A DNA stretch of 64,000 bases from the NCBI RefSeq assembly GCF_000296465.1, contig NZ_JH815203.1:496001-560000 (forward strand), read 5' to 3'. The notes under the pieces are model-generated. The model did not search any database and had not been told where the DNA came from. It saw nothing but the letters and a program-made list of their open reading frames with translations. This document shows positions 60,260 through 63,568 of the stretch, piece after piece (the stretch's first letter is position 1; every line of letters begins with the position of its first letter). Source of the stretch: Barnesiella intestinihominis YIT 11860. GTDB lineage: Bacteria > Bacteroidota > Bacteroidia > Bacteroidales > Barnesiellaceae. The translations under genes and the position numbers were made by a program.

Positions 60260-60634
60260 CTAATCGGGCAACATTCCCAATTTATCGGCGACACCCACGA
60301 CAAGTCCCCACACAAAGAAACTGACGACACCGGCAATTAACGCAGAGAAAAAACCATCGCTAATCCAAACAGAGATCACCGTAACGATAATACTCAACAA
60401 TCCTCCATACAAAATGATATACCCCATAGCCTTCCATATGAAAACCACAGCCGATAAAATAAAAGCCAACACAGACCAAACAAAACCGAAAAATCGAGAA
60501 AAACCATCGCCTACCCTTCGCCAAAACGAACGCCTCGGCCGGTGAGGATATTGCGGCCTTCCCTGTGAAATGATTTCACCGGTCGACATATTCACACGAG
60601 TCCCGTTACGCAACGTAATGATACGATCGCCCAT
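60260..60634 (-). CDS. Small membrane protein of the ubiquitin-like conjugation operon
   Basis: 124 aa. The first ~22 residues (MGDRIITLRNGTRVNMSTGE) form a short soluble hairpin-like head. Next comes a basic Pro/Arg segment (RPQYPHRPRRSFWRR), then three to four hydrophobic helices from ~45 to 120 with Phe/Trp/Gly-rich faces. It lies 11 bp after the E1 gene, last in the operon. No family recognised. It could be an inner-membrane effector, an anchor, or the target of conjugation; the sequence alone does not say. Confidence 0.7.
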   Translation of the reverse strand: MGDRIITLRNGTRVNMSTGEIISQGRPQYPHRPRRSFWRRVGDGFSRFFGFVWSVLAFILSAVVFIWKAMGYIILYGGLLSIIVTVISVWISDGFFSALIAGVVSFFVWGLVVGVADKLGMLPD

Positions 60635-60645
60635 AGCCCCAAAAA

Positions 60646-61878
60646 CTATCTACACTCCAAGCACTCGGAATCTTTTTTCAATTTTACTCCATACCAACGG
60701 AGTATCGTCAAATGTCTATTCGGATTCCGATTGAATGGAGCCCAGTTGGCAAATTGGAAATCCCGACGATTGGCCCAAATATAATAATCATAGGTCAACT
60801 CTTCTATCAGCGAAGATATGCCACACTCGATTCCACGAGATAGCTCGTTCAATGCCAATTTTACCATCATATTGTTAATCGGTGCGATATCGGTCGATAA
60901 TCCCACCTGAACCATCGCATGAGCATCCTCGTCCGACACATATGCCGGTATAACTCCCAACTCTCTGGCCCGACGCACATCGGTAATCTCGTCATTCTGA
61001 TGATAAATAGGATTCCCCGTCAAGCAGGCATAACACGGTCCACCCGGTCTTACGCGTAATATATCGCCACCCTCGGCGCGAGTGACAGCCCGGCCAAACA
61101 ATCCCACTTTACCCAATTTCACCAAACGGGCATTGATGTTATATCTGCTCGCATACTCGTCCGTCGCAGCTATGGTAAGATCCGATTCTGCCACACATTT
61201 TTCAAGAATATCGAGATGCTTATTCATATCGATATCGTAGGTCTCTACTTGCGCATACGGATTTTTCAATAATATGGCATCTTTCACGGCATTTACTTTG
61301 AGCCGTCCCAATTCGTTCACCCCACAGATATGACGAGCGATATTGTGCAATTCTATACGATCGAAATCCATCAGTATAAAATGCCCTACACCGGCTTTCG
61401 CCAACTCGACGGCAATAGGTGCGCCACCGCTGCCTAACCCTACGATAAGGACCTTTTTCGCCTCCAACGCTCCCACTTCGAGTAGCCCTTTACTGCGAGT
61501 ATAAAGCTCACTCTTGCGAGGCACATATTTCACAACCGCCTCGATGATTCTTCCGTCATCGACAATAAAAGCACGAGAGCTGACGTTCGTGTCTTCGACA
61601 TGAATGCAAACAATAACGACCGGAACTCGTTTTGCCTCTTCCGGCATCGATGCATAAACAGACAAAGCCACATCTTCGGCCTTTTCATAATCGTCAGTAT
61701 CGACTACCCGAAAGAGACAAGGCATGGAATATCCTGTCGGAGCCACCTGCGGATACTTGATGTAGACATGGTAAACCTGTTCGCCTTTCCACTCAAAAGC
61801 AGCGCCGAAACATTGTGATTGCCCGCTATTCCAAAAATCCTGCAAATGATCCTGATAAATGTACACTATCGGTTCCAT
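60646..61878 (-). CDS. E1-like ubiquitin-activating enzyme (ThiF/MoeB fold) with extra N-terminal domain
   Basis: 410 aa. Residues 1-135 are an unrecognised alpha/beta domain. The ThiF/E1 adenylation domain follows: VLIVGLGSGGAPIAVELAKAG (GLGSGG at 147-152, ATP loop), MDFDRIELHNIARH (Asp and Arg for Mg-ATP), NPYAQVETYDID and AATDEYASR (D240). Zinc ligands are C282 and C285 (PCYAC) and C406 and C409 at the very C-terminus (CLEC). This class adenylates the C-terminal glycine of a ubiquitin-like protein and passes it to E2. Further cysteines exist (C185, C228, C352); the thioester Cys is not evident. Encoded 6 bp after the 69-aa gene, in one operon with E2 and JAB genes. Confidence 0.88.
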   Translation of the reverse strand: MEPIVYIYQDHLQDFWNSGQSQCFGAAFEWKGEQVYHVYIKYPQVAPTGYSMPCLFRVVDTDDYEKAEDVALSVYASMPEEAKRVPVVIVCIHVEDTNVSSRAFIVDDGRIIEAVVKYVPRKSELYTRSKGLLEVGALEAKKVLIVGLGSGGAPIAVELAKAGVGHFILMDFDRIELHNIARHICGVNELGRLKVNAVKDAILLKNPYAQVETYDIDMNKHLDILEKCVAESDLTIAATDEYASRYNINARLVKLGKVGLFGRAVTRAEGGDILRVRPGGPCYACLTGNPIYHQNDEITDVRRARELGVIPAYVSDEDAHAMVQVGLSTDIAPINNMMVKLALNELSRGIECGISSLIEELTYDYYIWANRRDFQFANWAPFNRNPNRHLTILRWYGVKLKKDSECLECR

Positions 61879-61884
61879 AGCACC

Positions 61885-62094
61885 TTATTCTTTATCATTA
61901 TAATAAGGTTTGGTTCCTATTGTCGTGCCCACTTTTTCCTTTCCGCTTTTTTCCGCTTCATCGGGAGTCATCGCTTCCAGTTCTCCATCGTCTCCGATAA
62001 CCAATTCTACTTCTCTACGTCCACTGTTGGTTTGAGCCAGAGCTTCACCCAAATCTTCACAATCGTCAGTTTGTTTTTTTCCAAATAGTCCCAT
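61885..62094 (-). CDS. Small acidic protein between E2 and E1 genes, 69 aa
   Basis: Not recognised. Sequence order: MGLFGKK head, acidic DDCEDLGEAL, a possible strand pair REVELVIGDDGELEAM, a helix TPDEAEK, and a tail GTTIGTKPYYNDKE. It has no C-terminal Gly-Gly and seems too short for a full beta-grasp fold. It occupies the slot where a modifier or dedicated target would be expected: 23 bp after the E2 gene and 6 bp before E1. Possible roles are a processed modifier (internal Gly at GTTIG), an adaptor or a substrate. Coding status is supported by tight spacing and lack of overlap. Confidence 0.65.
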   Translation of the reverse strand: MGLFGKKQTDDCEDLGEALAQTNSGRREVELVIGDDGELEAMTPDEAEKSGKEKVGTTIGTKPYYNDKE

Positions 62095-62117
62095 AGTTAG
62101 TTATATTCTTTAATAGA

Positions 62118-62561
62118 TTAATAATTTGCCCCTTTCAAAAATTCATCGAGCGTCTTTCCCGTTTTCAGATGACATTCATACATTTCGAGCCAAATGCGAA
62201 CCTTAATAATAATCTGATACAAAGTTATTCGATTCGGAGCCCAATCCTCATAACCGTAATGGCAAACCCTCACACAGCCGTTTTCTCCGGTAAGCGTATG
62301 CATACTGTGACTGGCTTGCAGCATACTACCGCCGGAACGCGTCAACAAGGGTTTAGGACTCGTAATAAAAACCTTCGGTATATTATAGGGATAATTGTCC
62401 GAAAGGTCTATTTTCACCACGTAACATCGTAGAGAATTAGTCTGAATGGCGACCGCCAAATACGGATACGGCGTGTCCATATCCATAAATTTGTACTGTT
62501 TCGATTTTATCGTCGAATTTTGCAATACACCTAATTCTATTTGATATCTGTCATAAGTCAT
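62118..62561 (-). CDS. E2-like (UBC-fold) conjugating enzyme
   Basis: 147 aa, single UBC fold. The hydrophobic core strand and turn NYPYNIPKVFI (56-66) match the YPxxPPxV hallmark. H88 in MHTLTGENGC aligns with the conserved His upstream of the active site, and C96 or C100 (GCVRVCH) is the catalytic cysteine candidate. W107 and P109 (EDWAPNRITL) correspond to the W-x-P turn after it, and VRIWLEMYECH is the following helix. It would carry the modifier as a thioester from E1 to a target. The start codon overlaps the JAB stop by 4 bases (ATGA), which implies coupled translation. Confidence 0.85.
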   Translation of the reverse strand: MTYDRYQIELGVLQNSTIKSKQYKFMDMDTPYPYLAVAIQTNSLRCYVVKIDLSDNYPYNIPKVFITSPKPLLTRSGGSMLQASHSMHTLTGENGCVRVCHYGYEDWAPNRITLYQIIIKVRIWLEMYECHLKTGKTLDEFLKGANY

Positions 62562-63508
62562 ATCGATAAATATTTTAAACTGTTAATAACCGATTGTCCC
62601 ATCTCTGAAAACGACGAAAGCCAGTGAGGTGTACCGTTTTTTCCCAATGCCCCTAAGCTCCAAGAAGTAGTTTCTCCCGCTTCATACCGGACAACGTAAG
62701 GCGCCCGATTCGGAAAATCTTTATCGAAAACAATCCTCCAAGAAGACCGGCGAGGTATATCGAATCTGATTTCAATAGTCATGTCATCTACTTTCAACAG
62801 TTTCACATCAGAATATTTCGACTGTATATAAGAGACGATACGCTTCAACTGCAAACGGTTTTCTTTATTATTCAACCAAAAACCGGTATCGAACTTCACG
62901 CCATTCTCCGGCGGCATCTGTTGTACCGGAATCATATTCAACTCATGATACACAGCCTCTTTGACCTGCGGCATTATCACAGAATCCCGATAAGCCGTAT
63001 CATAACGACTCCTTACCGAACCGTCTCCTTGCACCACATTCCACGGCACTAAGTTCATCTTTACCCCTTCACCTGTGCATACAAAAGAAAAAGCATTGAC
63101 AGAGGCCCCTGCCCTATCGCAAATTCCAATAGCCAATATACACCGCGACAGCCCGTCTGCCAGCATACCCTCTTGTATCGATTGCACATCGCCTCCGCTC
63201 GGATACGACAATCCCAAACCATGATGCGAATGCCACACACCGATATGGGAGAGATGGTACTCTTCGAATAATCTATCGGCATGCAACTGCAAATAATCAG
63301 CATCTTGTATAAAACTGGTAAAACGACAGACCGACCTTCTACCGGGACCCAATACATACATGATTACGGCATCTCCGTTCGGCGTCCAATAGCCCAACAA
63401 ATTACCTCCGGTTTCCATGTGAGGAGAATCCAATATTGTCCTCGCCATGAAATCTAATTCCCCCCGATAAATATATACGCCCCCATGAGCTATTCGCCCG
63501 ATATCCAT
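62558..63508 (-). CDS. JAB/JAMM isopeptidase fused to a UBC/RWD-like domain
   Basis: 316 aa from ATG 63508; the frame opens at a TTG nine codons earlier, discounted. The N-terminal JAB domain (~5-150) has a full zinc motif: E32 in METGGNLLG, H93 and H95 in WHSHHG, S104 and D107 in PSGGD. It is therefore likely an active isopeptidase or modifier-processing enzyme. The C-terminal ~115 residues contain IEIRFDIPRRSSWRIVFDKDFPNRAPYVV split by a short turn. The FPNRAPYV portion copies the UBC/RWD strand-turn hallmark, but no catalytic Cys follows, so it is a pseudo-E2 or RWD-like docking module. It is first in the operon. Confidence 0.88.
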   Translation of the reverse strand: MDIGRIAHGGVYIYRGELDFMARTILDSPHMETGGNLLGYWTPNGDAVIMYVLGPGRRSVCRFTSFIQDADYLQLHADRLFEEYHLSHIGVWHSHHGLGLSYPSGGDVQSIQEGMLADGLSRCILAIGICDRAGASVNAFSFVCTGEGVKMNLVPWNVVQGDGSVRSRYDTAYRDSVIMPQVKEAVYHELNMIPVQQMPPENGVKFDTGFWLNNKENRLQLKRIVSYIQSKYSDVKLLKVDDMTIEIRFDIPRRSSWRIVFDKDFPNRAPYVVRYEAGETTSWSLGALGKNGTPHWLSSFSEMGQSVINSLKYLSI

Positions 63509-63560: not shown

Positions 63561-63568
63561 CAAACTTA
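63561..63568 (-). promoter_or_regulatory. -7 box of the ubiquitin-like operon
   Basis: TAAGTTTG on the minus strand (TAnnTTTG), about 53 bp before the JAB ATG at 63508. No TTTG at the -33 position, so strength is uncertain. Confidence 0.5.

Follow-up and report, generated by a model that had tools for sequence, protein, structure and literature searches.

Near one end of a 64,000-nucleotide stretch of the genome of Barnesiella intestinihominis YIT 11860 (contig NZ_JH815203.1, positions 496,001 to 560,000; hereafter the window), a compact operon encodes a JAMM metalloprotease (JAB), an E2-like enzyme, a small protein of 69 residues, an E1-like enzyme and a membrane protein. We propose, with slightly less than even confidence, that this cassette is a rare, horizontally spread, defence-type system of ubiquitin-like conjugation in which ubiquitin has been replaced by a hairpin mini-protein of roughly 58-84 residues. 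Reading the small protein as the modifier explains its placement among the enzymes, the variable tails behind its conserved C-terminal motif, its fusion to E1 in some lineages, the existence of a tandem copy, and the intact state of JAB and E2.

A five-gene operon

The five genes are co-directional on the minus strand and fit within 3.25 kb. JAB and E2 are joined by a 4-base overlap, ATGA, and the remaining intergenic gaps measure 23, 6 and 11 bases; the coordinates of the open reading frames (ORFs) thus bear out the tight operon described in a first-pass annotation of this DNA. That annotation had also reported no CD-NTase and no recognisable ubiquitin in the operon, in agreement with our gene list and family searches. 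The set is not a chance grouping, because it recurs in loci of several phyla. Its features are the following.

62558..63508, minus strand: JAB (JAMM metalloprotease) gene, 316 residues from the ATG; active-site residues E32, H93, H95, S104 and D107
62570..62866, minus strand: JAB C-terminal domain, residues 215-313; helix, five strands and helix in the model, UBC/RWD-like by element order only
62118..62561, minus strand: E2-like gene, 147 residues; C100 and H88
61885..62094, minus strand: gene of the small protein, proposed modifier or adaptor, 69 residues
61969..62010, minus strand: hairpin element VELVIGDDGELEAM of the small protein, from the alignment to homologues
61900..61911, minus strand: C-terminal motif KPYY of the small protein, aligned on [DE]GF[FA] of homologues
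61888..61899, minus strand: variable tail NDKE behind KPYY, differing among Barnesiella relatives
60646..61878, minus strand: E1-like gene, 410 residues; N-terminal domain 1-120, ThiF/adenylation domain 137-335, zinc tetrad C282/C285/C406/C409, Y313
60260..60634, minus strand: membrane protein, effector candidate, 124 residues; three hydropathy peaks
60554..60625, minus strand: N-terminal hairpin-like stretch RIITLRNGTRVNMSTGEIISQGRP of the membrane protein, assigned by eye, without an HMM (hidden Markov model) match

The longest JAB ORF begins at a TTG (63535), upstream of the ATG at 63508, and further upstream TAAGTTTG (63561..63568, minus strand) fits TAnnTTTG, which we take to be the Bacteroides -7 promoter element. 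Pfam identifies E1 as ThiF (2.9e-30) and matches JAB weakly (Prok-JAB 2.6e-4, below cut-off), as it does E2 (RWD 0.006, UQ_con 0.13). The PADLOC models for JAB, E2 and E1-E2 match the three enzymes, the best for E1 being PDLC00829 (residues 104-409, 8.7e-32). The small protein matches nothing in Pfam, NCBIfam or PADLOC.

The small protein as candidate modifier

Scanning genome contigs with the E1 alignment yielded 42 loci, of which 33 (L011-L043) reach 40-89% identity in the best segment, some of them lying in the same genomes as loci L003-L010; the remaining nine align with E1 over short stretches only. In 32 of the 33 E1 loci the contig extends over the interval from E2 to E1, and every one of these has a small gene there. 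The products are roughly 58-84 residues long and share an N-terminal helix (from a low-confidence model), a hairpin whose consensus is LVFDPxTGEL, and a C-terminal part resembling VVxDxIxx[DE]GF[FA]. Hairpin and C-terminus are conserved to a similar degree; at the C-terminus the motif [DEKQRN][GP][FY][AFY] is followed by 0-5 unconserved residues. In 29 rows (five near-duplicates dropped), the last three motif columns carry 3.0-3.7 bits, with 3.0 bits in the very last, and the next column 0.9 bits. The last motif residue across 34 units is F in 16, Y in 5 and A in 13.

The way in which these units end is informative. Thirty have free C-termini, six ending exactly at the motif (as in L032 and L034) and 24 with 1-5 more residues, while three of the other four run on into E1 and one into a next copy. 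The in-frame fusions to E1 occur in three cyanobacteria (L025, L029, L031) and keep EGFF, with EEGFF or REGFF leading into E1; they fall in one nested E1 clade, together with L037, whose contig lacks the junction. The tandem case is a single ORF of L042 with two closely similar copies. Ubiquitin precursors are also encoded as fusions and tandem copies. Within Barnesiella, the five small proteins are identical from residue 50 through KPYY and then diverge in their tails (NDKE in the window, then AN, LK, VK and VK), with a dN/dS (ratio of nonsynonymous to synonymous substitution rates) of 0.03-0.07 at a dS near saturation. Alternative C-terminal alignments exist for a few members (KEPYFA in L015 and L041, RPFFTA in L024), which makes any exact placement of the mature end tentative.

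The first-pass annotation had offered three options: that the modifier is the 69-residue protein after processing, that it is encoded elsewhere, or that it is dispensable. The first is the best supported, because of the conserved C-terminal motif with variable tails, the in-frame fusions and the tandem copy. The second is weakened by the position of the genome's only ThiS-type match, described below. The third does not fit, because a small gene is present in all covered loci and has the low dN/dS just given.

No beta-grasp modifier was found among the operon's proteins. A low-confidence homologue model, taken from the natural small-E1 fusion of Anabaena (L031; AlphaFold2 with a 29-row alignment, mean pLDDT, the predicted local distance difference test score, of 77), gives the small part a helix and a hairpin only, the latter formed by strands 27-31 and 36-40. 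The small-protein profile retrieved nothing below E = 0.5 among solved structures, and a hairpin-family search of the window's genome returned one other match (E = 1.9), which contains a stop and was discarded.

The enzymes

Conservation was assessed in alignments of 29 JAB, 31 E2 and 31 E1 rows, after dropping the near-identical L011, L013 and L014. JAB was detected in 31 and E2 in 32 of the 33 loci, the contig of L037 starting at E1; E2 is present in all 32 loci whose contig covers its place, and JAB was looked for in L043 and none was found. An E1 adenylation domain, an E2 and a JAMM protease occur together in 31 of 33. The JAMM residues E32, H93, H95, S104 and D107 are invariant (29/29), as are E2 C100 and H88 (31/31). 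The AlphaFold2 model of JAB (pLDDT 84) has BRCC36, archaeal Rpn11 and Cap3 among its best Foldseek matches; the JAB profile had no match at 0.01 among solved structures. As an observation on the side, L042:4450-5369 holds two tandem E2 genes beside the tandemly duplicated small protein.

In E1, many adenylation-domain residues are invariant across the 31 rows and the zinc CxxC pairs are kept (C282/C285 in 31/31, C406/C409 in 30/30). The statement that all three enzymes keep their catalytic or metal motifs therefore stands for JAB, for E2 and for the adenylation and zinc residues of E1, but not for the E1 catalytic Cys, which is not conserved. Loss of catalytic residues in most homologues, which had been named as a ground for abandoning the first-pass view, is not seen for JAB and E2. 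The best other Cys candidate in E1, C185, lies just behind the Arg-finger motif and is Cys in 26 of 31 rows. Y313, in the loop after the first zinc pair, is invariant, and rhizobial relatives have a Tyr at a similar place by eye. According to its title, PDB 9EAV concerns a Y370F mutant of BubCD; our guess, from counting and not from alignment, is that Y370 falls near Y313.

Foldseek places Cap2-CdnD first for E1 (4.6e-18) and Citrobacter BubCD next (1.2e-15), followed by UBA5, Atg7, MoeB, ThiF and MccB; MccB, PaaA and BubCD are also among the E1 sequence matches. The N-terminal domain (residues 1-120, window 61519-61878) has the invariant residues V35 and H37 and no Pfam match. It is perhaps the counterpart of the Cap2 wing domain, which a review (PMC12355090) likens to the N-terminal domain of Atg7. 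We also considered a dead JAB, given a similar element order; the profile-profile probability is 0.5%, and the Cap2 wing/Atg7-like domain is the better lead.

Two further observations concern E1. Ten cyanobacterial E1 proteins (L025, L028-L031, L035-L039) terminate in [DE][GN][FI]F or [DE]NIFA plus one or two residues, which resembles the C-terminus of the small protein. The window's genome has a second ThiF-like stretch with three in-frame stops (G000:C4:140879-141598), probably a decayed gene.

Hairpin copies on neighbouring proteins and a probable defence context

An HMM of the hairpin, built from the small proteins, was run on 28 loci (five near-duplicates dropped) with a threshold of 5 bits. 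It finds the hairpin at the N-termini of 8 of 79 downstream same-strand ORFs against 0 of 163 other ORFs (Fisher p = 1e-4), and at 10 bits in 3 of 79 against 0 of 163 (p = 0.03). Further cases lie below the threshold (L042, 4.7 bits) or outside the tested set (an ORF of L022), and a score of 3.5 was reached by a single ORF on the minus strand. Apart from the hairpin, the carriers are dissimilar and include membrane proteins (L015, L020, L023), proteins that look immunoglobulin-like by eye (L017, L026, L040, L042) and others. In eight loci, hairpins of the same locus resemble each other more than under shuffled pairing (92 of 20,000 shuffles). The RIITLRNGTRVNMSTGEIISQGRP stretch of the window's membrane protein varies at a single position among five Barnesiella, in a protein whose membrane part diverges, and by eye it appears to resemble the hairpin.

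A comparable pattern is described for effector-associated domains (EADs), of which one copy sits on the core and others on effectors, one EAD being fused to a ubiquitin-like protein (Ubl) (Kaur et al. 2020, PMC7159879). In the set of 28 loci the hairpin is likewise shared by the core and some adjacent candidate effectors, the window's membrane protein joining them by eye only. The hairpin pattern fits the published EAD rule, and this analogy therefore suggests that the copies might recruit an effector to a tagged target.

Ten neighbouring proteins were scanned with PADLOC and six gave matches. The defence-type neighbours comprise a PtuA-like protein (2.2e-66, L033), two LeoBC-like proteins (L018), an IetA-like protein (L016), a caspase-like protein (L022) and, in a Bradyrhizobium relative (L068), a CBASS-type endonuclease effector (1.2e-243; CBASS, cyclic oligonucleotide-based antiphage signalling system). 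Judging from such neighbours in some loci and from its pattern of presence and absence, the cassette probably belongs to bacterial immunity.

Other neighbourhoods deserve mention. Complete ClpB-like proteins with two AAA+ modules directly follow E1 in three loci (L015:7313-9598, L017:7296-9893, L041:7261-9504), and L023 has a Clp_N protein in its neighbourhood. We considered whether these proteins feed ClpP; in none of the three is the second Walker A motif followed by [LIVMF]GF, the loop form looked for, hence we regard them as disaggregase-like. Could a ClpB-like remodeller be coupled to the conjugation system? On the Bradyrhizobium plasmid (L068:2077-8447), JAB, E2 and E1 are followed by a hypothetical gene, a nuclease and a TIR-annotated protein, and the E1 N-terminus resembles, by eye, a fused small protein. 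A Mesorhizobium plasmid (L069:2778-7684) encodes a 57-residue protein ending in LGG-EY, an E2, an RWD-like ORF annotated as antitoxin, an E1, a JAB, a probable metallo-beta-lactamase and a patatin, the assignments of the small protein and of the metallo-beta-lactamase being by eye. The 57-residue protein may thus represent the same principle with a Gly-Gly end.

Distribution and probable horizontal spread

The 33 E1 loci come from Bacteroidota, Cyanobacteria, Fibrobacter, and metagenome-assembled genomes (MAGs) of Verrucomicrobia, Chloroherpetonaceae and Clostridium. The Clostridium row groups with a Muribaculaceae row in the E1 tree and the locus may be misbinned. The order JAB-E2-small-E1 recurs across Bacteroidota, Cyanobacteria and other phyla. 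The first-pass annotation had missed this broad taxonomic range, as well as the hairpin motif that neighbouring effector-like proteins have in common with the small protein.

An E1 of this kind is rare, because it is found in 7 of 119 relatives searched (E <= 1e-20, the window's own counted), in 3 of 395 genomes phylum-wide (E <= 1e-30, own included) and in 2 of 395 class-wide (another query, E <= 1e-40, own included). Four of eight other genomes of the same genus have it, and one of the seven positives, G111, is weak (32% identity). In three of three related genomes examined (G001, G005, G008), the genes that flank the operon, a pseudouridine synthase and a phosphatidylserine decarboxylase-like gene (named by eye), adjoin without it; the cassette was therefore gained or lost as one unit at this site.

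In the E1 tree, three Bacteroidota rows join the cyanobacteria (99/97) and the Fibrobacter row lies among Bacteroidales. Horizontal transfer is indicated because the tree mixes phyla, and these E1 sequences point to a cassette that has spread horizontally. The scan of viral contigs gave 122 pattern matches, none confirmed; phage records gave six, covering at most 54% of E1 (four annotated as MoeB or ThiF, two unannotated); none of 80 plasmid records covers 80% of E1; and the small protein of L040 had no match among plasmids.

Relation to known systems

The cassette is a variant of bacterial E1-E2-JAB operons, and we make no claim that it is unpublished. Its type is undescribed in the titles and abstract beginnings of the literature searched, a partial coverage that did not extend to the Bil/Bub papers of 2024 or the E1 survey of 2009. 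An exact match to a characterised Bil or Bub subtype, which the first-pass annotation had named as grounds for giving up its view, was not found: the defining gene sets of Bil, Bub, CBASS, types 6a-6e and 6A-MBL, so far as they are known to us, do not fit.

With type II CBASS the cassette shares E2 and JAB in one operon, Cap2 as top fold match of E1 and Cap3 among the fold matches of JAB; Cap2 activates a protein without a beta-grasp fold, as E1 would here. In contrast to type II CBASS, the cassette has separate E1 and E2 genes, a dedicated small partner and no CD-NTase in the operon, and unlike Cap2 its E1 is without a conserved catalytic Cys and the GF[FA]/PYY motif stands instead of a terminal Gly/Ala. 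The Citrobacter system BubA-BubB-BubCD (PDB 9EA4/9EAV), which we take to be 'type II Bub', is alike in E1 fold and E1 sequence match. However, BubCD unites JAB and E1 in one chain, whereas the cassette encodes them apart, both in the window and in every locus that yielded the two. A Ubl domain is part of BubA, and family searches found no BubA-like Ubl protein among the five window proteins. The ISG15-like Bil systems (BilA-D) contain E1, E2 and JAB, as the cassette does, and BilA is a ubiquitin-fold protein; there is no BilA-like ubiquitin-fold match among the five window proteins.

The 6A-MBL anti-phage model NF058523 matches JAB and E1 weakly, far below cut-off, and the operon has neither a fused E2-E1-JAB protein nor a metallo-beta-lactamase. 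In the text consulted of Iyer et al. 2006 (PMC1779556), this fused protein with the metallo-beta-lactamase defines operon type 6a, types 6d and 6e encode beta-grasp Ubls, and types 6a-6e have the logic of JAB, E1 and E2 in common with the cassette; no hairpin mini-protein is described in that text. With the EADs of PMC7159879 the cassette shares a core copy and further copies at effector termini, often in adjacent genes, the shared element in the cassette being a hairpin of roughly 13-20 residues.

A possible mechanism and its alternatives

In the mechanism that we envisage, JAB would trim the tailed or fused small protein behind the GF[FA]/PYY motif, E1 would adenylate the exposed C-terminus and, having no conserved catalytic Cys, would pass the small protein straight to the E2 Cys, and E2 would move it onto a target. 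JAB might also undo this attachment. The free hairpin of the attached small protein would then recruit a membrane or other effector through the N-terminal hairpin copy of the latter; in the window, this effector would be the membrane protein (60260..60634). In its full form, with a largely disordered, non-beta-grasp hairpin mini-protein ending in GFA/GFF/PYY that is processed by JAB from tails, fusions and tandems, an E1 without catalytic Cys, a hairpin serving as homotypic recruitment tag on membrane effectors and a ClpB-like unfoldase in some lineages, we regard this cascade as conceivable but doubtful.

Several observations weigh against the proposed modifier and its recruitment role. Conjugation itself is still a putative activity. 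By analogy, the bulky last motif residue of many members seems at odds with Cap2 substrates: according to PMC10097602, the protein that Cap2 conjugates lacks a ubiquitin fold and ends in Gly or Ala, and substrates ending in Trp, Val, Arg or Ser are not conjugated. E1 has no conserved Cys beyond the zinc tetrad in 31 rows, and the look-alike motif at the end of ten cyanobacterial E1 is not predicted by the modifier model. These three points (aromatic motif ends, no conserved E1 Cys, a similar motif at E1 termini) hold our confidence just below even. In addition, the fusions are open to the reading that the small protein is no more than a domain of E1, and the L031 model is poorly supported in its small part (confidence about 55 for the helix, 60-71 for the hairpin, below 50 for residues 48-63). 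The motifs behind the hairpin effect are short; likeness within a locus may reflect shared ancestry, and a locus's own hairpin pair falls below the mean of other pairs in two of the eight loci; the cyanobacterial loci yielded no effector with a hairpin. Of the neighbours scanned with PADLOC, four (in L019, L026 and L035, and the TIR-annotated protein of L068) have no defence match. The last of these points concerns the window's own small protein, whose membership in the family leans on gene position. The family HMM had included it; once the five Barnesiella rows are removed, the model gives it E = 3.6 among 6246 stretches, which is not significant; the small proteins of L015, L024 and L041 reach E values of only 0.0009-0.025 in the leave-out check. 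This outcome slightly lowered our confidence in the modifier reading and in its full form, and slightly raised that in the adaptor alternative given below. Under the Barnesiella-free model, the top four of the 476 plus-strand stretches in their loci are nevertheless the four Barnesiella homologues, and the score of the window protein is reached in 4 of 1000 shuffles. Over its full length the window protein is aligned by hhalign, which pairs the two hairpins and sets KPYY against the DGFF region (E 5e-4, probability 31%). We take it as a diverged homologue on the strength of identical gene position and moderate sequence support, a kinship not proven by sequence alone.

The most serious alternative, although we think it rather unlikely, is that the small protein acts as a non-covalent adaptor or regulatory subunit of E1, its hairpin and C-terminal motif serving as docking peptides, while the conjugated species is an effector, a phage protein or E1 through its own tail. 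Its fusion to the E1 N-terminus in one cyanobacterial clade, and by eye in L068, would fit such a role, as would the resemblance of the ten cyanobacterial E1 C-termini to its end and the Phe/Tyr at the motif end, unusual in an E1 substrate. Against it, the motif is the very C-terminus in 6 of 30 free ends and is followed by 1-5 variable tail residues in the other 24, a tandem copy exists, and no other candidate modifier was recognised in the operon. A pathway resembling that of ribosomally synthesised and post-translationally modified peptides, in which E1 would modify the C-terminus of the small protein as MccB does MccA, JAB would free a C-terminal peptide and E2 would be a carrier, strikes us as improbable. 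MccB activates a short peptide, and MccB and PaaA are among the E1 matches. Metallopeptidase conflict systems with a small protein bearing a conserved FxSxx-COOH are also described in PMC7159879. Yet the catalytic Cys and His of E2 are invariant and E2 is present in 32 of 32 covering loci, conservation is about equal in hairpin and C-terminus, and no recurring exporter or tailoring gene stands among the neighbours listed.

The remaining two alternatives place the substrate outside the operon. It is very improbable that the modifier is an ordinary beta-grasp ThiS-like protein encoded elsewhere and the small protein unrelated to conjugation: the genome has one ThiS-type match, but a ThiF match stands some 5 kb away from it on that contig, the arrangement of an ordinary thiamine cluster, and a small gene is present in 32 of 32 covered loci. 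Least plausible of all would be a derived type II CBASS with E1 and E2 acting on a distant CD-NTase. E1 does resemble Cap2 and the PADLOC E1-E2 models, and the genome has one CD-NTase (SMODS). It is on another contig, however, with none of the genome's three ThiF-type matches near it; its ORF in L072 ends in TEE, not in Gly/Ala, with a 186-residue ORF next; and a crude CD-NTase pattern had no match in the 33 loci. That locus (L072:623-2028, C2 about 326,500 of the window's genome) reads as the CD-NTase ORF followed by the 186-residue ORF, which is presumably SLATT-like, without E1 or E2 in the stretch read, and is a separate conflict system of the same genome.

Implications

If the small protein is indeed the modifier, then ubiquitin-type conjugation would need no ubiquitin fold, even for a dedicated modifier; a short peptide would suffice, given an end that can be recognised and a hairpin for recruitment. 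The evolution of the E1/E2/JAB chemistry would then be separable from that of ubiquitin. Such a small set of E1, E2 and modifier would be useful for biochemistry, and makes testable the question of what an E1 without catalytic Cys can activate and hand to E2. For the organisms concerned, the cassette would add a family of probable immune systems, present in gut Bacteroidales and in cyanobacteria.

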